From assembly GCA_900770015.1 (NCBI GenBank), contig CAAGIU010000314.1, forward strand, positions 1 to 11,039: 11,039 bases of DNA, written 5' to 3'. A program made the translations under genes and the position numbers. Below the pieces are notes generated by a model, which saw only the letters and a program-made list of their open reading frames with translations, had not been told where the DNA came from and did no database searches. The DNA comes from an uncultured Oscillospiraceae bacterium (lineage in GTDB: Bacteria; Bacillota_A; Clostridia; Oscillospirales; Oscillospiraceae). Shown here in pieces: positions 244 through 10,021 of this stretch (within the stretch, counting starts at the first letter, position 1; each line of letters starts with the position of its first letter).

Positions 244-582
244 TTATCTCAGCTCCACAGCGACGCCGTGGGGGAGGCAGACGATGATGCCAACAGTATC
301 CTCGCTCAGGGGCGGCGTATAGACGCATACCTGATTGCTGCAGTCGGCCTCAATGATGGCCGCCCTGCCGTTTTTGATTTCCAGCAGGTTATACCAGCTG
401 TTGTCCTCACCGGTGATTTTGACGGTCTGATCTTTGCGCAGATCGTAGGTGCCGTACTCCCGGCCATTCACCGTGACCAGCACCTGCGCACCCGCCGGGC
501 GCAGAAGCCAGACAGCGGCTCCCGCAGCCACGGCGATGACAAGGATCAGAGAAACAAAGAGAATCAGTTTGCGGTTGCTCAT
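244..582 (-). CDS. NusG domain II-containing membrane-anchored protein
   Basis: A 112-aa protein with one N-terminal membrane segment (about residues 5-27) followed by an outward-facing domain of about 80 residues. The second half has the NusG_II (PF07009) pattern: a DCSNQVC stretch (C81, C86), then a hydrophobic VGIIVCLPH strand (C102) close to the end. The family is not the transcription factor NusG. In Firmicutes such proteins are commonly encoded beside Rnf, FMN-binding or ApbE-type genes, and their function is not established. The gene begins 3 bp after the stop of the large reductase gene and has no clear RBS of its own, so its translation is probably coupled. It is the last gene of the operon. 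A role in assembly or flavin/redox handling at the outer membrane face is only a guess from context. Confidence 0.82.
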   Translation of the reverse strand: MSNRKLILFVSLILVIAVAAGAAVWLLRPAGAQVLVTVNGREYGTYDLRKDQTVKITGEDNSWYNLLEIKNGRAAIIEADCSNQVCVYTPPLSEDTVGIIVCLPHGVAVELR

Positions 583-585
583 GGA

Positions 586-3500
586 TTATTCTGCGGTGGC
601 ATACTCCGTGGCATTGGCGCCGGCGATGCGGCCGAAGACAACGATATCCGCCACGGCATTACCGCCGATGCGGTTGCCGCCGTGGACACCGCCGCAGACC
701 TCACCGGCCGCGAACAGGCCGGGGATGATCTCGCCGTCGGTGTTGATGACGTGGGTTTCGGTATCGATCTTGACGCCGCCCATGGTGTGATGGATGCCGG
801 GGGCGATCTTGATGGCGTAGTAGGGAGCCACAGACAGGTCGTGCTCCATGCCGGTGGTGCGGCCGAAGGCGGTATCCTCACCGGCTGCAACAGCGGCATT
901 CCAGTCGGACAGCGTCTGGCTCAGGACTGCGGGATCCATTCCCAGCGCCTCGGCCAGAGCTTCGATGGTCTCCGCTTCGGTGACGATGCCGTTCTTGATG
1001 TACTTCTCGGTGGCCTTCAGGCCCTCGCGCAGGCGCTGGTCGAAGATGATATAAGCATAGCAGCCCTCCTGCTCCAGCTCAGCGGCGGAGACCACATCCC
1101 GGGTCAGCAGCTCGTTGGTGAAGCGGACACCGGACTGATTGACCAGAATAGCGCCGTCGCCCCGGACACTCTCGGTGACCATGATGCTGGTGGTCTGCTC
1201 CACGGTGGGATGCAGCTGAATCTGCTCGATGTCCACCAGGTCGGCGCCTACGGACTGCGCCAGGACAATGCCGTCGCCGGTGGCACCGGGTGCATTAGTG
1301 GTGACGGTACCCTTCAGGTCGGGACGGTAGGTGCAGTACATTTCCTCGTTGGCGCCGAAGCCGCCGGTGGCCAGAATGACTGCCTTGGCATGGATCGTGT
1401 AGTCGCAGTCGGCACCCTCGGCCATAACGCCGCAGGCTGTGCCGTCATTCATAAGGATGGAAACGGCCTTTGTCTCCAGCAGGACTTCGATGCCCATCTG
1501 ATCCAGGATGCCGGAGAAGGCATTCACCAGATACTCACCCACACCGCTGCCGTCGGCAGGAGCATGGATGCGGTTGACGGAAGCGCCGCCGGAGAAGGAG
1601 ACCTTGGGCAGCGGTGCGCCCAGCTCATCCAGCCATTCGATGGCATCAGCAGAGTTTTCGGCCATGGTGGTGACCAGGTCGATGTTGTTGATCTCGTGGC
1701 CGCCCTTCATGGTGTCGGAGACGAACAGCTCCACGCTGTCCTCAATGCCCTGTTCCTTCTGATAATGGGTTTCGGCAGCATTCATGCCGCCGGTGGCCTT
1801 GGTGGTGTTGCCGCCCACATAGGGCATCTTTTCCAGCACCAGGACGTTCATGCCTGCCTGCTTGGCGGTGATGGCGGCGGACATACCGGCGCCGCCTGCG
1901 CCGACGATGACCACGTCCACATCCCGAACCTCGGCGGTTCTGGCAGCTTCACCCTGATTTTCGGTGCCGGTGAGGGCAGCCGCGTCCACGTTGGCCTGGG
2001 CCAGCGCGTCGGTGAAGGCCTTGCAGATGGCGTTGCTGGAAACCGTGGCGCCGGAGACGGCATCCACATCCAGGGACTGTGCCGCCAGCAGCTTGCCGGG
2101 CAGCTTCTCCACGGCAACGGAGCCCAGGCCTGCGGTCTCGCTGTCGCCCACGGCCTTCACGTCGGTGATTTTGCCGCCGGTCAGGGTGACATCCACGGTG
2201 ATGTCGCCGCCAAAGCCCTTGGCGGTGGCGCTGTAGGTTCCGTCAGCGGCCTCGGAAAGGGAGATGAAGCTCTGTGCAGTCTCAGTTTCAGAGGCAGCAC
2301 CCAGCGCGGCCATGCCTTCTGCGATCAGGGCATCGGCCTTATCCAGGCATTCATAGGCCAGCTTGGAGTTGTGGGCGCCCTCGCTGTTCTCCACATACTG
2401 ATAGTCGAAGAACCACTGGGCATGACGGTGGATGGTGCGGATGTTGTTCAGGTCTTCCTCCGCCCAAGTGCCGGAGGCCACGGCCTCGGCCAGGGCTTCC
2501 TTGAACGCGGCCAGCTTGTTGCCGACCTCGGTCTCCCGGGCGGTGACCTCCGCCTGGATGGTATGAACCTTTTCGGCCATATCCACGCCCTTATGGCAGG
2601 TGGCGCAGGTCTCCAGGATGGCGGGGCTGTCCAGAGGACTGACCAGGGTATGGCTGGTATAGGTGGCTTCGCCGGTGACCTTTTCCATATGGCAGGAGGC
2701 GCAGCTCATGCCCATGGAGGCATGGATGCTGCCGTTGAGGTAGGTCTCCATTTCGGGGTGCTGCGCCTTCAGCAGGCCGGTGCCGGTGGAGGGCTGGGTC
2801 CAGTCGGAGAAGCCGATGGCGTCATAGTACTCCAGCATGGCCTCGGGGGTCATTCCGGCAACACTGGTGTAGGGAACGGTGGTGGCCTTGGTGTCAGGCT
2901 CGAAATAGTACTCGATGTGGCACTGGCCGCAGGACAGGGTGGCAGCGTCGATGGTATCCATTTCGCTGCCCAGCTTGTCGATGATATAGTCGTGGGTGAC
3001 CACCAGCTCGCCGGTTTCTGCCTTATCTGCATGGCAGTTGTAGCAGCCCACATTCTCGGTCATGGAATCAATGATCTCATTAAAGTCCAGGCTGTAGGCG
3101 CTGACGCCCTGGGCCTGCACCAGCTCGGTGAAGTCGGAGGTCTTGCAGGTCATGCAGTTTGCCAGAGGATGGGGACGGGCAGTCTCCTTCAGATCCTCCA
3201 GGCAGTACTCATGGCCACGGGCGCTGCCGTACTGCTTGGCAAAGCCGAAGCCCTCGTACAGGCTGACAAGATAGGGATCGGTTTCCAGATAATCCACAAT
3301 GTAGTCGTTATCCTTGTTGGCAGTATAGCTTGCCATGATCTGCGCCAGGGCAGGGCCGGATGCGGCTGCCTCGGCGGCTTCTTCCGCAGAAGCTTCGGTG
3401 GTTTCCTCAGCGGGAACATAGAGACCCGCCTGCTCCAGGGCGCTGTTCACCGCAGCCCGGACGGCATCGGCGGTGATGGTGGCGCCTGCCATGGCGTCCA

Positions 3501-3825
3501 CGTCGGCGGACTGGGCCTCCAGGATTTTCGCAGGCATCTCCTCCAGGACAACACCGCCCAGAGAGGGAGTCTCATCCGCGCCGGTGAGCTTGACATCCAC
3601 GATCCTGCCGTCGTCCACCGTGACTTCCGCCACGATGTCGCACATCATGCCCTTGGCTGTCCCGGTGAACACCTGGCCTTCCACGGCCTTGGGAGCCGTC
3701 GTGTTGTTGTAAACACAAACACACAACCCCAGAATCGCCGCGCTGACAACAAAGCCGACGATCCATTTCAGCAGATCATTCAGGACGGTTTTCATGGGAT
3801 TTCCATGATTGCTATTCACGTTCAT
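586..3825 (-). CDS. Fused FMN / NrfA-type pentaheme cytochrome / FMN / FAD reductase
   Basis: A 1079-aa exported redox enzyme. Order: membrane anchor (about 16-38, no lipobox); FMN-binding domain (about 48-133, motif D110-AMAGA-T116); NrfA-like cytochrome c552 (about 165-510); second FMN-binding domain (about 528-610, D588-AVSGA-T594); FAD domain of the fumarate reductase/flavocytochrome c type (about 634-1070, GxGxxG at 642-647, E665). Hemes: C224MTCK228, C261YNCH, C299GQCH, C375ASCH, C407ATCH. The CxxCK site, RGH at 203-205, EYYF after heme 3, KAQH (353-356), AQWFFDY (469-475) and a late His (484) match NrfA. H872, T884/E885, R909, H1013 and R1052 match fumarate reductases. The start is uncertain: AAGGAG lies only 2-3 nt before this ATG but about 8 nt before an in-frame GTG at 3819; Met11 (3795) is possible but weak. 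Likely reactions are nitrite to ammonium and fumarate to succinate; substrates are inferred. It follows rnfB by 59 bp. Confidence 0.88.
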   Translation of the reverse strand: MNVNSNHGNPMKTVLNDLLKWIVGFVVSAAILGLCVCVYNNTTAPKAVEGQVFTGTAKGMMCDIVAEVTVDDGRIVDVKLTGADETPSLGGVVLEEMPAKILEAQSADVDAMAGATITADAVRAAVNSALEQAGLYVPAEETTEASAEEAAEAAASGPALAQIMASYTANKDNDYIVDYLETDPYLVSLYEGFGFAKQYGSARGHEYCLEDLKETARPHPLANCMTCKTSDFTELVQAQGVSAYSLDFNEIIDSMTENVGCYNCHADKAETGELVVTHDYIIDKLGSEMDTIDAATLSCGQCHIEYYFEPDTKATTVPYTSVAGMTPEAMLEYYDAIGFSDWTQPSTGTGLLKAQHPEMETYLNGSIHASMGMSCASCHMEKVTGEATYTSHTLVSPLDSPAILETCATCHKGVDMAEKVHTIQAEVTARETEVGNKLAAFKEALAEAVASGTWAEEDLNNIRTIHRHAQWFFDYQYVENSEGAHNSKLAYECLDKADALIAEGMAALGAASETETAQSFISLSEAADGTYSATAKGFGGDITVDVTLTGGKITDVKAVGDSETAGLGSVAVEKLPGKLLAAQSLDVDAVSGATVSSNAICKAFTDALAQANVDAAALTGTENQGEAARTAEVRDVDVVIVGAGGAGMSAAITAKQAGMNVLVLEKMPYVGGNTTKATGGMNAAETHYQKEQGIEDSVELFVSDTMKGGHEINNIDLVTTMAENSADAIEWLDELGAPLPKVSFSGGASVNRIHAPADGSGVGEYLVNAFSGILDQMGIEVLLETKAVSILMNDGTACGVMAEGADCDYTIHAKAVILATGGFGANEEMYCTYRPDLKGTVTTNAPGATGDGIVLAQSVGADLVDIEQIQLHPTVEQTTSIMVTESVRGDGAILVNQSGVRFTNELLTRDVVSAAELEQEGCYAYIIFDQRLREGLKATEKYIKNGIVTEAETIEALAEALGMDPAVLSQTLSDWNAAVAAGEDTAFGRTTGMEHDLSVAPYYAIKIAPGIHHTMGGVKIDTETHVINTDGEIIPGLFAAGEVCGGVHGGNRIGGNAVADIVVFGRIAGANATEYATAE

Positions 3826-3884: not shown

Positions 3885-4673
3885 TCAGACATACTGGATT
3901 GCCTTGGTGGGGCACTTCTCCACGCACTTGCCGCAGGCGACACACTTCTCGGGATCGACCCGGGCCACATTGTTTTCCAAAGTGACGGCGCCCTGTTCGC
4001 ACTGCTTGACGCAGATGCCGCAGCCGATACAGCCGGCGGAGCAGACCTTCTTCACCGCAGGGCCTCTGTCCTTATTGGAGCAGCGGACGCTGACGGCGGC
4101 AGCGCGGTCGTGCATGCCGATGATGCCCTTGGGGCAGGTCTTGGCACAGAGGCCGCAGCCGATGCACTTGCGCTTATCCACCACAGCCACGCCATCCACA
4201 ATGGAAATGGCCTGCTGGGGGCAGATCTTCACGCAGCTGCCCAGACCCAGGCAACCATATTCGCAGCTCATGAAGGGCAGACCGCTGAGGGCGGCGGCAC
4301 GGCAGTCATGAATGCCCACATAGTTTGCCTTTGCCTTGGTGGCATTGCAGGTGCCTGCGCACTGGACAAAGGCCACCTGGGGGTCCTGATCCACGGACTC
4401 GATGTTCATAATGGCGGCAATTCTGGCGATGTTCTCGGAGCTGTTGCCGGGGCAGGCATCCGCATGGGCCTCGCCCTTGACAATGGCTTCGGCAACGGCA
4501 TCGCAGCCTGCATAGCCGCAGGCGCCGCAGTTGCTTCCCCGGAGACAGTCGCGCACCTGGGGAATCCGCTCATCCACTTCCACATAGAACTTCTTGCCGG
4601 CAGTGACCAGCGCCAGGCCCAGAACCAGACCCACCAGTCCAACCACCAGGGTAGAAATCAGAATCAGACTCAT
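3885..4673 (-). CDS. rnfB: Rnf complex iron-sulfur subunit RnfB
   Basis: A 262-aa ferredoxin-type subunit, the usual entry point for electrons from reduced ferredoxin into Rnf. An N-terminal membrane helix (about 3-26) is followed by a Fes-type [4Fe-4S] domain (C49, C52, C57, C74) and a Cys-rich section (C105, C109, C124, C137-C151). Then come ferredoxin motifs CIGCGLCAKTC (170-180), CIGCGICVKQC (215-225) and CVACGKCVEKC (244-254). The ATG at 4673 is preferred over an in-frame GTG at 4682, because the GAGGAGG ribosome binding site overlaps that GTG and sits about 8 nt before the ATG. The gene starts 13 bp after the rnfA stop and is the last canonical rnf gene of the operon. Confidence 0.95.
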   Translation of the reverse strand: MSLILISTLVVGLVGLVLGLALVTAGKKFYVEVDERIPQVRDCLRGSNCGACGYAGCDAVAEAIVKGEAHADACPGNSSENIARIAAIMNIESVDQDPQVAFVQCAGTCNATKAKANYVGIHDCRAAALSGLPFMSCEYGCLGLGSCVKICPQQAISIVDGVAVVDKRKCIGCGLCAKTCPKGIIGMHDRAAAVSVRCSNKDRGPAVKKVCSAGCIGCGICVKQCEQGAVTLENNVARVDPEKCVACGKCVEKCPTKAIQYV

Positions 4674-4686
4674 TCCGGTCACCTCC

Positions 4687-5262
4687 TCAGGACAGGCCGC
4701 TGAAGCCCATGAAGGCCATGGCCATCAGGGTTGCGCACAGCAGCACAATGGGAGCGCCCCGGAAGGGAGCGGGGATCGCTTCCTCATCCAGGTGCTCACG
4801 GACAGCAGCCAGCAGGACAATGGCGACGGTAAAGCCGATGGCGGTGCCGAGGCCGGCAGTCACACCCTCGATCAGGTTGTAGCCGTTCTGCACATTGGTC
4901 AGCGCCACGCCCAGCACCGCGCAGTTGGTGGTGATGAGGGGCAGGTAGATGCCCAGGCTCTGGTAGATGGCGTGGGCGTTCTTCTTCAGGAACATCTCCA
5001 CCATCTGCACCAGGGCGGCAATGACCAGGATGAAGACGATGGTCTTCAGGTAGTCCAGGTTCAGCGGCGCCAGAACATAGGTATACAGCAGGGATGCCAC
5101 CGCGGAAGCCGCCACCAGAACCACAGTGACCGCCATGCCCAGAGAGAAGGATGCTTTCTTCTGCTGGGACACGCCCAGGAAGGAGCAGATGCCCAAAAAC
5201 TGGCTCAGAACAACGTTGTTCACCAGTGCGGTGGTCACAATAATCGTAATGAGACTTTTCAT
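4687..5262 (-). CDS. rnfA: Rnf complex membrane subunit RnfA
   Basis: A 191-aa integral membrane protein of the RnfA/NqrE family, with about six membrane helices and family length. The two conserved half-channel motifs are visible: NNVVLSQFLGICSFLG (C26) near the N-terminus and YLPLITTNCAVLG (C114) mid-protein. In this family these cysteines, with those of RnfE, bind an intramembrane [2Fe-2S] cluster that carries electrons across the membrane. The start codon overlaps the rnfE stop (ATGA), and an AAAGGAGG site lies about 7 nt upstream inside rnfE, so expression of the pair is tightly coupled. rnfB follows immediately. Confidence 0.96.
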   Translation of the reverse strand: MKSLITIIVTTALVNNVVLSQFLGICSFLGVSQQKKASFSLGMAVTVVLVAASAVASLLYTYVLAPLNLDYLKTIVFILVIAALVQMVEMFLKKNAHAIYQSLGIYLPLITTNCAVLGVALTNVQNGYNLIEGVTAGLGTAIGFTVAIVLLAAVREHLDEEAIPAPFRGAPIVLLCATLMAMAFMGFSGLS

Positions 5263-5927
5263 ACGTTAGCCTCCTTTTTGTCGCAGGCGGAGCTGCAGCT
5301 TGCGCAGCAGCCGTCGCAGCCCTCGGTGATCTTGTTGGCCCGGGTCTTGATGCCGATGGCGTTCATGATGGCCACCAGGATGGCCAGCACCAGGAACGCC
5401 CCGGGGGCACGGACGAAGAAGGCAATTGGCTCAAAGAAACCGATCTGGAAGCCGAAGATGCTGCCCGCGCCCAGCAGCTCCCGGATGGCGCCGATGATGA
5501 CCAGCGCGCCGGTGAAGCCCAGACCCATACCCAGGCCGTCGAACAGACTCAGCAGCGGGGGATTCTTGGAAGCAAAGGCTTCGGCTCTGCCCAGGATGAT
5601 GCAGTTGACCACGATCAGGGGAATATAGATACCCAGAGCGGCATACAAAGACTCCATGTAGGCCTCCATCAGCAGCTCCACCACCGTAACGAAGGACGCC
5701 ACCACGACGATGAAGGCGGGAAGCCGGACTTCATCGGGGATGATTTTGCGCAGCAGGGAGATGACCACATTGGAAATGGCCAGAACCACCAGAGAGCTCA
5801 GGCCCATGCCCAGGCCGTTGATGGCGGAGGTCGTGACTGCCAGCGTCGGGCACATGCCCAGCATCAGGATCAGCGCCGGGTTTTCCTTAAAAATACCGTT
5901 TGTAATTCGTTCCCAATAAGCTTTCAT
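5259..5927 (-). CDS. rnfE: Rnf complex membrane subunit RnfE with Cys-rich tail
   Basis: A 222-aa membrane protein homologous to RnfA (NqrD/RnfE family), with about six helices. The conserved motifs are NPALILMLGMCPTLAVT (C26) and YIPLIVVNCIILGRAEAFA (C109); these cysteines pair with those of RnfA for the membrane [2Fe-2S] centre. The N-terminal WERITNGIFKENP stretch is typical of the family. The last 20 residues carry five cysteines in a CxxCCxxCxxxC pattern (204-215) after the final helix; this tail could bind metal or an Fe-S cluster, but no role is known to me. The RBS AAGGAGG is about 7 nt upstream, starting at the stop of the preceding rnfDG gene. Confidence 0.96.
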   Translation of the reverse strand: MKAYWERITNGIFKENPALILMLGMCPTLAVTTSAINGLGMGLSSLVVLAISNVVISLLRKIIPDEVRLPAFIVVVASFVTVVELLMEAYMESLYAALGIYIPLIVVNCIILGRAEAFASKNPPLLSLFDGLGMGLGFTGALVIIGAIRELLGAGSIFGFQIGFFEPIAFFVRAPGAFLVLAILVAIMNAIGIKTRANKITEGCDGCCASCSSACDKKEANV

Positions 5928-5939
5928 GTCTTCCCCTCC

Positions 5940-7463
5940 TTACTTCAGATTTTCGGAATAGAAGCGCAGCGCCGCGTTGACCGCGTTCACCACGGAATTG
6001 GATGTGACGGTGGCGCCGTTGACGGCATCGATGCCGTCGGGGCCGGAGGAAGCGCCGCCCTTGTTCAGGGTGAACTGCTCGGCCTGGGCACCGACGAACT
6101 GATCCATGAACTCCGCCTCGCCGCAGCGCATACCCATGCCGGGAGTCTCGTGCAGCTCGGTGAAGGCGATGCCGTTGAGGCTGCCGTCGGCACGGATGCC
6201 CACCACCAGCGCCAGACCGCCGTCGAAGGAATCGGAGTTGGACACATGGACCACATAGCCCACCACATTGCCGGATGCATCCTTGCCCACCACGGCGTTT
6301 TCGATGGTCACGCTGCCGTAGGTGCCCTGAGCATTTTCAATGGCAGAGCGGATGGCATCGTCCTTGTCAAAGGAAGCGGCATCGGGAACCACCTCCAGGA
6401 AGGCTGCCTGGTTGGCGTTTTCCTTGTTCTGCGCAATCCGGTCGGCGGTCATCACATACACACCGCTCAGAGCCACGCCTGCAACCAACGTGATGCACAG
6501 CAGGATGATAACGGGCTTGGGAATGGCCTTCTTGCGCTCCTTGGGGATGTAATAGGCATAGGGAATGGGGACAAACAGGTCATCGATGACCGGTCCCACC
6601 AGGTCCGCCAGCAGCACCGCGTAGGTGGTGGAGTCGGCGGAAGCGCCCTTGACCCGGAACAGGCCGATCAGGATGCCGGTGAAGGCGCCGAAGATCAGCT
6701 GGCCCTTGGTGGTGGAGGGACTGCTGACGGGATCGGTGGCCATGAAGAAGGCCGCCATCAGCAATCCGCCGCCCAGGATCTGGGGCAGAATGTACGCGGC
6801 AGACAGGCCATGACCGCCGAAGATGGCCACAAAGGCGGTGAAGGAGACGATTATGGAGGTGGGAATCTCCCAGGTGATGCCGCCGGAGAGCAGCAGATAG
6901 ATGCCGCCGACCAGCAGACCCAGAGCGGAGCTGCCGATGACGCCGCTGGTATTGCCGATGCACAGCGCCAGCAGATCCACGGTCTGGCCCGCAGCCACCT
7001 GCGCCAGAGGCGTTGCACCGGCCACGGAATCCAGGGTGTAGCCCGTCATGGCGGTGCCGAAGGAAATCAGCAGGAAGCTGCGGCCTGCCAGGGCGGGGTT
7101 CATGATGTTGTGGCCCAGGCCGCCGAAGAGGCACTTGACCACGAGAATGGCAAATACCGCGCCCAGCACCGGGATATACACCGGCACTCTGGCGGGCAGC
7201 GTCAGGGCCAGCAGCAGGCCGGTGACGATGGCGCTGCAGTCGCCGATGGTATTTTTTCTTTTGGTGACTTTGTCAAACAGGTACTCGGTGAGCACGGCGG
7301 CGGCAATGGACACGGCGATGATCATGGCAGAGTAAGCACCGTGGGCCCAGATGCCCAGAACCGTGGTGGGCAGCAGCGCAATCAGCACATCCCGCATCAC
7401 CGCTTTGGTGGAAAGCGGATTGCGGATGTGGGGGCCGCTGGAAATATTCAGAACTTCACTCAT
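5940..7463 (-). CDS. rnfDG: Fused RnfD-RnfG flavoprotein subunit
   Basis: A 507-aa protein joining two Rnf subunits normally made separately. Residues 1 to about 312 are RnfD: a multi-helix membrane protein of the NqrB/RnfD family with the flavinylation motif D145-SVAGA-T151 and the MATDPVSSPST segment. Residues about 313-507 are RnfG: one membrane helix (about 316-338) and an outward-facing FMN-binding domain with HETPGMGMRC (438-447) and D479-AVNGA-T485. The linker is very short (PKERKKAIPK), and there is no stop, RBS or start codon between the halves. The chosen start at 7463 has TAAGGAGGG about 8 nt upstream, overlapping the rnfC stop; the open frame extends further upstream, but only antisense to the real rnfC frame. 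Both covalent FMNs would need an ApbE-type flavin transferase, absent from the window. Confidence 0.93.
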   Translation of the reverse strand: MSEVLNISSGPHIRNPLSTKAVMRDVLIALLPTTVLGIWAHGAYSAMIIAVSIAAAVLTEYLFDKVTKRKNTIGDCSAIVTGLLLALTLPARVPVYIPVLGAVFAILVVKCLFGGLGHNIMNPALAGRSFLLISFGTAMTGYTLDSVAGATPLAQVAAGQTVDLLALCIGNTSGVIGSSALGLLVGGIYLLLSGGITWEIPTSIIVSFTAFVAIFGGHGLSAAYILPQILGGGLLMAAFFMATDPVSSPSTTKGQLIFGAFTGILIGLFRVKGASADSTTYAVLLADLVGPVIDDLFVPIPYAYYIPKERKKAIPKPVIILLCITLVAGVALSGVYVMTADRIAQNKENANQAAFLEVVPDAASFDKDDAIRSAIENAQGTYGSVTIENAVVGKDASGNVVGYVVHVSNSDSFDGGLALVVGIRADGSLNGIAFTELHETPGMGMRCGEAEFMDQFVGAQAEQFTLNKGGASSGPDGIDAVNGATVTSNSVVNAVNAALRFYSENLK

Positions 7464-7477
7464 TCGCGCATCCCTCC

Positions 7478-8800
7478 TTACCGTTTTTTGGCGGCCATGA
7501 TCTCGGCCTTGGTCAGCTTGAACAGCTGCATCAGAGGCCGTCTGGCAGGGCAGATGTAGCTGCAGCAGCCACAGGCGATGCACTCCAGGCCGTAGAGCTT
7601 CTTCTCGTAGCGCTCGTAGTCCTTCCGGTTGGCGGCGACCTGCATCAGCTGGGGAGAAAGGCCCAGGGGACAGACGCGGCTGCACCGGCCGCAGCGCAGG
7701 CAGGCGGTCATATTGGCCTCCGCCTCCTCCACCTCGTCAAAGGTCAGGGCGGTGATGGCATTGTTGTTCTTGCAGATGGCGCAGTCCAGCGTCGGCAGGG
7801 CAATGCCCATCATGGGGCCGCCGAAGAGGATCTTGCGGGTGCCTTCCTTCAGGCCGCCGCAGGCTTCCACCAGCTCGGAGGCAACGGTGCCCACCCGGAC
7901 CATGAAGTTGCCGGGGTTCACCACGGCATCACCCGAGACGGTGACGCTGCGCTCGATGAGGGCTTCGTTCCACTTGACGGCGCGGTAGATGGCCCGAATG
8001 GTGGCCACATTGTCCACCACGCAGCCCACATCCGCAGGCAGCTGGGTGGCCTTGATGCTGATATCCGCCACCACCTTGATCAGGCTGCGCTCGCCGCCCT
8101 GGGGGTACTTGGTCTGCACAGGCATGACGCTGATGTTGCCGGAGCAGGCAGCCTGCATGGCCGCGATGGCTTCGGGCTTGTTCTTTTCGATGACGATGAC
8201 GCCCTTGGCATTGGGGAACAGCCGCAGCATGATCTCCATGCCGCCGACAATTTCCGAGGCCTTGGTGCGCATCAGCTGGTCATCGCAGGTGATGCAGGGC
8301 TCGCACTCGGCACCGTTGGCGATGACATACCTGATCTTGTCGGGCTCCTTGGGGCTGAGCTTGACGTTGGTGGGGAAGCCTGCGCCGCCCATGCCCACGA
8401 TGCCGGCGGCCTTGACCCGGTTCAGGATCTCCTGATTGCTCAGGGAAGCCACATCGGTCTCCTGGCCGAAGCCCTCCACGGTGGTGTAGGCGCCGTCATT
8501 GGCAACGACGATGGCCTGACCCATGGCTCCGGTGGCTGTGGGCCGGGGCTCGATGGCTTTCACAGTGCCGGAAACGGAGCTGACCACATTGGCCGAGATG
8601 AAGCCGCTGGCTTCCGCGATGATCTGTCCCACCAGGACAGGGTCTCCCTTCTTGACCACGGGAACCGCGGGTTTGCCGATGTGCTGGCTGGTCATGAAGA
8701 CCAGATCGCCCACCGGAGCATAGGGGGTCAGAGGAATTTCCTTTGTCAATTCCTTCCATCCATCGGGATGGACGCCGCCCCGGAATGTTCTATCTCCCAT
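7478..8800 (-). CDS. rnfC: Rnf complex peripheral subunit RnfC
   Basis: A 440-aa cytoplasmic subunit that binds NADH/FMN and passes electrons between NAD and the rest of Rnf. Visible features are the N-terminal TFRGGVHP motif, the Gly-rich nucleotide/flavin loop GMGGAGFPTNVKL (136-148), the NGAECEPCITCDD segment (162-174), GGPMMG (327-332), and two C-terminal [4Fe-4S] motifs: CLRCGRCSRVCP (367-378) and CIACGCCSYICP (407-418). The ATG at 8800 is preferred: an AAGGAG site is about 8 nt before it but only 2 nt before the ATG at 8806. It is the first gene of the operon, about 70 nt after the predicted transcription start, and rnfDG follows with a 14-bp gap. Confidence 0.96.
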   Translation of the reverse strand: MGDRTFRGGVHPDGWKELTKEIPLTPYAPVGDLVFMTSQHIGKPAVPVVKKGDPVLVGQIIAEASGFISANVVSSVSGTVKAIEPRPTATGAMGQAIVVANDGAYTTVEGFGQETDVASLSNQEILNRVKAAGIVGMGGAGFPTNVKLSPKEPDKIRYVIANGAECEPCITCDDQLMRTKASEIVGGMEIMLRLFPNAKGVIVIEKNKPEAIAAMQAACSGNISVMPVQTKYPQGGERSLIKVVADISIKATQLPADVGCVVDNVATIRAIYRAVKWNEALIERSVTVSGDAVVNPGNFMVRVGTVASELVEACGGLKEGTRKILFGGPMMGIALPTLDCAICKNNNAITALTFDEVEEAEANMTACLRCGRCSRVCPLGLSPQLMQVAANRKDYERYEKKLYGLECIACGCCSYICPARRPLMQLFKLTKAEIMAAKKR

Positions 8801-8837
8801 AGACATCTCTCCTTACTGATATGTTCTGGAAACGCCC

Positions 8838-9137: not shown

Positions 9138-9248
9138 ATGAAGCTGTTCCAATTCATGAAACATTCCGGCAACCGTGAGGAAATGCGTCAGGACGCCAAG
9201 GTGCGCTGCTATGTGTGCATCAACGGCATCATCATGCCCGTGCTATAA
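9138..9248 (+). CDS. Small 36-aa protein with a CxxC motif, function unknown
   Basis: A 36-codon ORF (begins MKLFQFMKHSGNREEM, ends with a hydrophobic INGIIMPVL tail) preceded by a perfect AGGAGG ribosome binding site (9123-9128, 9 nt from the ATG) and an extended -10 promoter. I do not recognise the family. Residues 24-27 form CYVC, which could bind metal or be redox-active. There is no signal peptide or long membrane segment. It is divergent from rnfC. Its stop lies inside the 3' end of the convergent araC-type gene (6-bp overlap), with no terminator before it. It could be a true microprotein, a peptide precursor, or a translated leader; the strong RBS is the main support for coding. Confidence 0.55.
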   Translation: MKLFQFMKHSGNREEMRQDAKVRCYVCINGIIMPVL

Positions 9249-9992
9249 GGCATCCCCGGCCGAAGCATAACGGCTGCGGTATTCCCTGGGCGTCATGCCG
9301 GTGGCTTTCCGGAACACACTGGTAAAGTGGCTCTGGGAGCAAAAAGCCAGATAATTTGCAATGTCCGAGTAGCTGTAGTCGCTGTAGCGGAGCATTCCCT
9401 CCGCCGCCTCGACCCGGCGATGGCGGATATAGTCGGAGACCGCTTTGCCGGTCTCCTTTTTAAATAATACGGACAGGTAGCTTTCGTTGAGTCCCACGGC
9501 AGCCGCCAGGTCCGTCAGCCTGATCTGCTCATACAGGTGATTGCCGATGTAATCGATGCAGTCCTTCACCTGTTTGGAGCAGATTCTCTGTTTTTTGACG
9601 GCGGTCATTTCCTTCAGGTAAAATTCCAGCATATCCCGATGGAGGGCGATGACCTCCTCCTCGGTCTGAAGCTCGTCCATTTTTCGGATATAGAGGTCGC
9701 TGGCGTTGTAGGCCCGCTCCTCGTCCATGCCGCCGTCCATGCAGGCCCGGCAGCACAGGGTGATGCTGGAAACAAAGAGATACTTGTAATTGCGTACCGG
9801 GTCCTCAGACAAGTGCCCCTGGATTCCGGCGCAGAAGGACTCCGTCCCCAGCTCCACAGCCTGGGGGTTGGCATCGCGCAAAAGCGCAAAGGGCAGCAGC
9901 TCCCGCCTGTGGCCCGGATGGTGGAAGTTGTTCTCCCGATTGAGAAATTCCAGATAAAACAGCTGCTTTTCCCGGATCGTCAGTTCCCGCAT
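9243..9992 (-). CDS. AraC-family transcriptional regulator
   Basis: A 249-aa DNA-binding regulator. The C-terminal 100 residues hold the two helix-turn-helix units of the AraC/XylS fold: the first at about 157-178 (LTDLAAAVGLNESYLSVLFKK), the second at about 207-229, ending in the signature FRKATGMTPREYR. The N-terminal part (about 1-135) resembles a sensor region found in other Clostridia AraC proteins (EDPVRNYKYLFVSSITL, then GGMDEERAYNASDLYI) and is unusually Cys-rich here (C54, C80, C81, C84). The ATG at 9992 is preferred over the one at 9998, because GGGAGG is about 8 nt from the former and 2 nt from the latter. Its target is unknown; the rnf operon, the small ORF or the TRIC gene are the nearest candidates. 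Confidence 0.88.
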   Translation of the reverse strand: MRELTIREKQLFYLEFLNRENNFHHPGHRRELLPFALLRDANPQAVELGTESFCAGIQGHLSEDPVRNYKYLFVSSITLCCRACMDGGMDEERAYNASDLYIRKMDELQTEEEVIALHRDMLEFYLKEMTAVKKQRICSKQVKDCIDYIGNHLYEQIRLTDLAAAVGLNESYLSVLFKKETGKAVSDYIRHRRVEAAEGMLRYSDYSYSDIANYLAFCSQSHFTSVFRKATGMTPREYRSRYASAGDAL

Positions 9993-10021
9993 GGGCATCG
10001 CCTCCCTGGTTGGATGCGATC

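Follow-up and report, generated by a model that had tools for sequence, protein, structure and literature searches.

An 11,039-nucleotide stretch of DNA from an uncultured Oscillospiraceae bacterium (assembly GCA_900770015.1, contig CAAGIU010000314.1; hereafter, the window) carries on its minus strand a single open reading frame (ORF; 586..3825, 1,079 aa, ATG start) that joins NrfA, the textbook ammonia-forming nitrite reductase, to a fumarate-reductase-type flavoprotein, immediately downstream of an operon for the ion pump RNF. The best explanation overall, which we consider probable, is that the product of this gene is a quinone-independent reductase of both nitrite and fumarate that receives its electrons from RNF. 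The stronger part of this claim concerns the operon, in which RNF would donate electrons to NrfA without quinones; the fusion itself would be a variant of known modules and not a wholly new kind of enzyme.

Domain organization of the fused protein

The domains of the fused protein were delimited by Pfam searches, alignments, motif scans and structure prediction, and all lie on the minus strand. An N-terminal membrane anchor (residues 10-42; 3700..3798), which is a helix in the predicted model and hydrophobic in the translation, is followed by a first FMN domain (residues 45-135; 3421..3693; limits taken from the BLAST segment), a pentaheme NrfA domain (residues 172-522; 2260..3312), a second FMN domain (residues 537-608; 2002..2217) and a fumarate-reductase-type FAD domain (residues 637-1058; 652..1917). 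Pfam assigned FMN_bind to two stretches (E 7e-31 for the protein), Cytochrom_C552 to residues 172-522 (E 4e-77) and FAD_binding_2 to residues 637-1058 (E 2e-88). Both FMN_bind domains hold the GAT acceptor motif, as DAMAGAT at residue 110 and DAVSGAT at residue 588 (motif scan), and would carry flavins attached covalently by ApbE.

The NrfA half contains five heme motifs, of which CxxCK is the first and the other four are CxxCH, and it matched the solved NrfA structures 3ubr (E 4e-48) and 1gu6 (E 8e-46). A usable separate model of the NrfA domain alone confirmed the fold. Alignment to 1gu6 and 3ubr places the catalytic Arg, which we take to be R106 in the numbering of the E. coli enzyme, at R217 of the fused protein, and the catalytic Tyr and His at Y306 and H356. 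These three residue types form the NrfA active site according to passages of PMC8840924. The Lys-ligated heme motif and the three residues are kept in all 13 fused rows and in all 113 rows of our alignments, which were assembled after setting aside incomplete domains, rows from loci with at most 45% identity and loci after L079. The Arg of the RGH motif (R203) was also considered as the catalytic one and was ruled out by the alignment to 1gu6; Ile or Val stands at this position in 12 of the 113 rows, and R217 is invariant.

The flavin half matched a flavocytochrome c3 fumarate reductase (Fcc3; 1qo8, E 2e-128) and carries the Fcc3-type residues HPT, TE, TRD, HHTMGG and NRxGGN, with H872, T884, E885, R909, H1012, H1013 and R1052 identified by alignment. 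Its FAD domain is 46-48% identical to Fcc3 structures and 39% identical to urocanate reductase, a comparison of identity and not of aligned active sites. The tetraheme c3-type N-terminal domain of Fcc3 was not encountered, the heme domain here being Cytochrom_C552 with five motifs. Both halves retain their active-site residues throughout the 13 fused rows examined, apart from one Ser in place of T884.

An earlier note on this DNA, made from the sequence alone, had proposed the order anchor, FMN, pentaheme cytochrome, FMN and FAD in a single frame, and the ORF, the Pfam matches and the number of heme motifs bear it out; it gave no strand for the gene, which is the minus one. The motifs that it named are present, but the Arg of RGH, listed there among the NrfA hallmarks, is not the catalytic Arg.

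Further homologues with parts of this architecture were found. Two complete NrfA domains per chain, with ten heme motifs, are present in clusters P0006, P0043, P0044, P0053-P0055, P0066 and P0067, with or without FMN domains. NrfA-like proteins in which no FMN domain was detected form a group (loci L066, L068, L070, L071, L076 and L078; clusters P0055, P0066 and P0067), some of them being two NrfA domains in tandem; in this group the Arg of RGH is replaced by Ile or Val, and Arg, Tyr and His remain at the catalytic positions. Clusters P0005, P0007, P0008, P0010, P0012-P0036 and P0040 (excepting P0016 and P0030, which are fusions with NrfA) are large fumarate reductase proteins, in most of which the FAD domain is preceded by three or four FMN domains and followed by one, and their FAD domain is 81-83% identical to that of the window where the two are comparable.

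The RNF operon and its relatives

Domains of all six RNF subunits (RnfA, B, C, D, G and E) were found in the window, D and G sharing one ORF. On the minus strand, the order is rnfC (7478..8806; RnfC_N, Complex1_51K, SLBB and Fe-S domains), rnfD-rnfG (5940..7463; NQR2_RnfD_RnfE and FMN_bind, 507 aa from the Met taken as start), rnfE (5259..5927), rnfA (4687..5262), rnfB (3885..4682; Fe-S), the fused reductase gene and a small NusG domain II (NusG_II) gene (244..582). Both rnfA and rnfE belong to the Rnf-Nqr family and were told apart by gene order. With starts as taken, the successive gaps are 14, 12, -4, 4, 59 and 3 nt; because they are so short, one transcript probably covers these genes.

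Among 79 related loci we found 22 NrfA ORFs, 19 of them with at least 800 bp of upstream sequence. The gene directly upstream of nrfA is rnfB in 14 of these 19 testable loci, and also in L032, where 754 bp are available; L044 and L070 were not scorable. ResB is encoded at most 600 bp downstream of the NrfA ORF in 17 of the 21 cases with at least 1.5 kb of downstream sequence, and resB-ccsA lies elsewhere in the same cluster in L004, L073, L076 and L078. In Wolinella succinogenes NrfI, a CcsAB fusion homologue of the nrfHAIJ operon, serves the CXXCK heme, according to the 2025 review PMC12285233, and resB-ccsA neighbors therefore fit a functional NrfA.

The slot after rnfB is filled in several ways. 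In the two loci closest to the window it holds an NrfA gene without fumarate reductase (FMN-NrfA in L004, FMN-FMN-NrfA in L050), followed by NusG_II, as in the window, and by the cytochrome c maturation genes resB-ccsA. In L015 separate genes for FMN-FMN-fumarate reductase and NusG_II stand between rnfB and nrfA, and in L032 a single chain reads FMN-FMN-fumarate reductase-FMN-NrfA, the reverse of the FMN-NrfA-FMN-fumarate reductase order of the window. Loci L027 and L049 possess a fused RnfD-RnfG, multi-FMN proteins and a fumarate reductase gene, and no NrfA was found in either locus. Such a series of layouts is what one would predict for two reductases that both serve as outlets of a single RNF.

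Of 21 RnfD ORFs in the related loci, 16 are fused to RnfG. Where the locus also has NrfA, the count is 14 of 15, and the fifteenth ORF is cut by a contig end; separate rnfD and rnfG genes occur in L014 and L052, both without NrfA. Two other loci (L001, 7594-11665; L002, 2911-6982) show a mini-cluster of rnfC, rnfD and an FMN-fumarate reductase gene, with identities of 79 and 76% to the window protein in the fumarate reductase domain; rnfG, rnfE, rnfA and rnfB were not found in either locus.

Recurrence of the fusion

Two clusters share the architecture of the fused protein over its full length, P0003 (78 member sequences) at 99% identity and P0004 at 96%, which makes a frameshift or chimeric join very unlikely. 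Examination of the best 120 of 351 clusters from the homologue search revealed both halves in one chain in 11 (P0003, P0004, P0009, P0011, P0016, P0030, P0037, P0038, P0039, P0041 and P0049), and a search repeated with a profile built from five fused proteins returned the same 11 among the 120 matches listed. NrfA comes first in 4 of them and after the fumarate reductase in 7, an order also seen in the additional fusion of locus L032; the two NrfA-first clusters other than P0003 and P0004 are 64 and 68% identical to the window protein (best local alignments).

Phylogenetic trees were built by a quick method for each half, from 59 of the 113 rows for NrfA (near copies of unfused rows removed, all fused rows kept) and from 41 of the 113 for the fumarate reductase. 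The fused label changes 4 times in the NrfA tree, at least 3 of the changes being forced by well supported branches, and 6 times in the fumarate reductase tree, with at least 5 forced; each change may be a gain or a loss. These trees indicate that NrfA and fumarate reductase were joined repeatedly, and as judged from sequence comparison the fusion is a real and recurrent architecture in a conserved operon.

Electron supply in related genomes

The closest relatives of the window's bacterium are uncultured Clostridia. Two of them, G001 and G002, each encode one NrfA, RnfD, ApbE and CcsA, with NrfA, RnfD and CcsA on one contig; on a different contig each also has a fumarate reductase-type gene (53% identical) that is not part of a fusion. 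Quinone and partner genes were sought in 14 draft genomes holding RNF-NrfA loci and in 14 control genomes, with one gene for each menaquinone route. None of the 14 related drafts reached the cut-off for the NrfH/CymA/NapC family (NrfB was given no search of its own), for NrfD, for menB or for MqnA/D, where one match fell below it; the only sub-threshold NrfH/NapC match falls within nrfA itself, in G001. The cut-off was reached in 1 control for NrfH/NapC, 4 for NrfD, 7 for menB and 4 for MqnA/D. RnfD was found in 13 of the 14 related genomes, once in 12 of them and as two contig pieces in one; the remaining genome, G299, has no RnfD match, and its NrfA contig begins at rnfB. These bacteria thus appear likely to lack quinones.

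Proposed mechanism and alternative explanations

We propose that the fused protein is an extracytosolic, membrane-anchored dual reductase fed by the RNF of the same operon. RNF would oxidize ferredoxin or NADH in the cytosol, on its RnfB/RnfC side, and flavins bound covalently to the RnfD-RnfG fusion would carry the electrons to the outer face, from where they would pass through FMN domain 1 to the five hemes. Nitrite would be reduced to ammonium at the Lys-ligated heme, and electrons moving onward through FMN domain 2 would reach the FAD, where fumarate would be reduced to succinate. The order of the domains along the chain mirrors this route. We infer the route and its direction, the covalent attachment of the flavins, the two activities and the coupling of ion pumping to electron export; the two sites might work simultaneously. 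More broadly, we see an even chance that these bacteria carry out a quinone-free nitrite respiration, in which RNF acts as electron exporter and flavinylated domains replace NrfH or NrfB, which would add a fourth type to the redox partners of NrfA, while fused members divide the flow between a site for nitrite, which takes six electrons, and one for fumarate, which takes two, either acceptor keeping the pump turning. The suggestion of the earlier note that two acceptors might draw on one electron supply fits the retention of both active sites in the fused rows; that note had overlooked the RNF operon, the probable supplier.

Several observations weigh against this interpretation. In five of the 19 testable loci (L015, L066, L068, L069 and L071) nrfA is not directly preceded by rnfB, and in the window no resB-ccsA is present in the 243 bases past NusG_II. 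The fusion is rare: among the matches listed, none spans both halves, whether in 200 genomes from the family to which G001 belongs (3 candidates scored per genome) or in 101 genomes sampled for the genus of G001 and as many for that of G002 (E <= 1e-60, up to 7 scored), two samples made up largely of the same genomes. The whole-chain model is weak (pLDDT 66.9, pTM 0.50), particularly in the heme half, and contains no cofactors, so that no distance between cofactors is claimed. In FMN domain 1 an Ala precedes the GAT, and the usual FMN_bind motif differs from it at the residue before the G. Two related genomes have menB-like matches of 137-138 bits, below the cut-off of 342.7, and the ApbE, the ccsA and the lack of quinones of the window's organism are all extrapolated from relatives, every one of them a draft. 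Finally, the substrate of the flavin half could be another enoate, and that of the NrfA half could be hydroxylamine, NO or sulfite.

Among the alternatives, it is unlikely that the pentaheme domain merely serves as a wire, in a fumarate reductase that exchanged the tetraheme cytochrome domain of Fcc3 for one derived from NrfA and for which nitrite chemistry is incidental. Fcc3 does couple a multiheme cytochrome to the same type of FAD domain, and 879 genes combining fumarate reductase-like and cytochrome domains are reported in PMC8238504. A plain wire, however, would need neither a Lys-ligated heme motif nor R217, Y306 and H356, which are kept in every row aligned, and the closest loci fill the slot with FMN-NrfA and no fumarate reductase. 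Electrons from RNF might instead leak to an NrfA that removes nitrite or NO, so that nitrite is detoxified and not respired and fumarate reduction is the half that matters for energy. Gut Clostridia do meet nitrite mainly as a toxic product made by others, and none of the 9 window proteins scanned is a nitrate reductase, a weak point as the genomes were not searched for one. The operon nevertheless couples NrfA to an ion pump, and we regard detoxification as quite unlikely; it differs from the RNF-fed dual reductase in physiology and not in mechanism.

It is decidedly improbable that the FAD domain runs in reverse or acts on something else (succinate oxidation; urocanate, acrylate or another enoate), feeding or draining the hemes accordingly. 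Fcc3-type enzymes favor fumarate reduction over succinate oxidation, and the Fcc3-type residues and the higher identity to Fcc3 than to urocanate reductase speak against such a role, even though PF00890 enzymes have many substrates, according to PMC8238504. A flow from the flavoprotein into the heme module was one idea of the earlier note, and it finds no support in active-site residues that are those of a fumarate reductase, nor in the many related loci where the fumarate reductase module is a separate gene. We give almost no credence to an artifact, whether an assembly join, a frameshift or an annotation accident that placed neighboring genes in one frame, and reject this reading. At least one relative (L015) does encode the halves as two genes within a single cluster, but near-identical full-length proteins fall in separate clusters (P0003 and P0004), two further NrfA-first clusters are more distant and fusions in the reverse order occur elsewhere; the join or frameshift of which the earlier note had warned is at odds with these relatives.

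Relation to known systems

Known NrfA enzymes (PF02335; 1gu6 from E. coli, 3ubr from Shewanella oneidensis, 1fs7 from W. succinogenes) agree with the window protein in fold, in having CxxCK as the first of five heme motifs and in the catalytic residues Arg, Tyr and His; they also share the E of EYYF and the K and Q of KAQH. Their known redox partners are three, NrfH, CymA and NrfB, all quinol-linked, as listed in PMC12285233; in the window this role seems to fall to FMN domains and RNF, and the NrfA is fused to a second reductase. Fcc3/FccA of Shewanella (1qo8, 1d4c) has a similar FAD domain, with the same active-site motifs and a heme domain upstream of it, in contrast to the window protein, which has a pentaheme NrfA in place of the tetraheme wire, two FMN domains and a membrane anchor. 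Listeria FrdA is extracytosolic and also combines FMN_bind with a fumarate reductase domain; it has an FMN-binding domain in place of the cytochrome domain, and the passages on it in PMC8238504 describe no link to an RNF operon.

Closest to the operon is an RNF cluster of Christensenellales for which Meheust et al. 2021 (PMC8238504, Fig. 6H) proposed a multi-flavinylated multiheme "RnfG" as second electron outlet. It shares the RNF cluster and an extracytosolic flavin/multiheme protein, and probably belongs to the same broad group. Where that paper treats it, the protein is not identified as NrfA and is not joined to a fumarate reductase, and the text does not take up a link to resB-ccsA, the joining of RnfD to RnfG or the absence of a quinone route. 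The term NrfA does not occur in the main text, where nitrite reductase is mentioned twice, both times as NirS beside NapH-like proteins; supplementary file 3 may list such proteins. The RNF of Methanosarcina acetivorans is also associated with a multiheme c-type cytochrome (MmcA) that leads electrons outward, but this archaeal protein is described in PMC12174285 as an electron conduit and is no nitrite reductase. The words Rnf, flavin and FMN are absent from the main text of PMC12285233, as are Rnf, FMN, flavin, Clostridi- and NrfH from that of PMC12998184, and nitrite from those of PMC12174285 and PMC10979944.

Searches of the open-licence literature, supplements excluded, yielded in the titles and abstract openings listed no description of an RNF-linked NrfA or of an NrfA-fumarate reductase fusion. 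An RNF with a flavin/multiheme protein is already in print (Meheust et al. 2021), and the RNF-linked NrfA and the fusion may be new. The earlier note knew of no enzyme with this architecture, which agrees with the literature search; the architecture is nonetheless recurrent and modular and no lone oddity.

If the proposal holds, fermenting Clostridia without menaquinone would respire nitrite while pumping ions, by means of an RNF-flavin-NrfA operon, with heme attachment genes in relatives and no NrfH. This could matter for the use of nitrate in feed to curb rumen methane and for the handling of nitrite in the gut. The repeated fusion suggests that evolution keeps putting both acceptors on the same electron outlet, and the fused protein offers a single protein on which transfer from RNF to its acceptors could be tested directly.

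Other features of the window

Upstream of rnfC lies a gene for an AraC-family regulator (9243-9998, minus strand) that may control the operon; the opposite strand encodes a membrane protein of family PF03458 (10010-10813, plus). No RNA family reached the gathering threshold in the window. Two 70-nt direct repeats, 83% identical (5-74 and 131-200) and each with a palindromic core, adjoin the 3' side of the NusG_II gene, a position held by resB-ccsA in L004 and L050.

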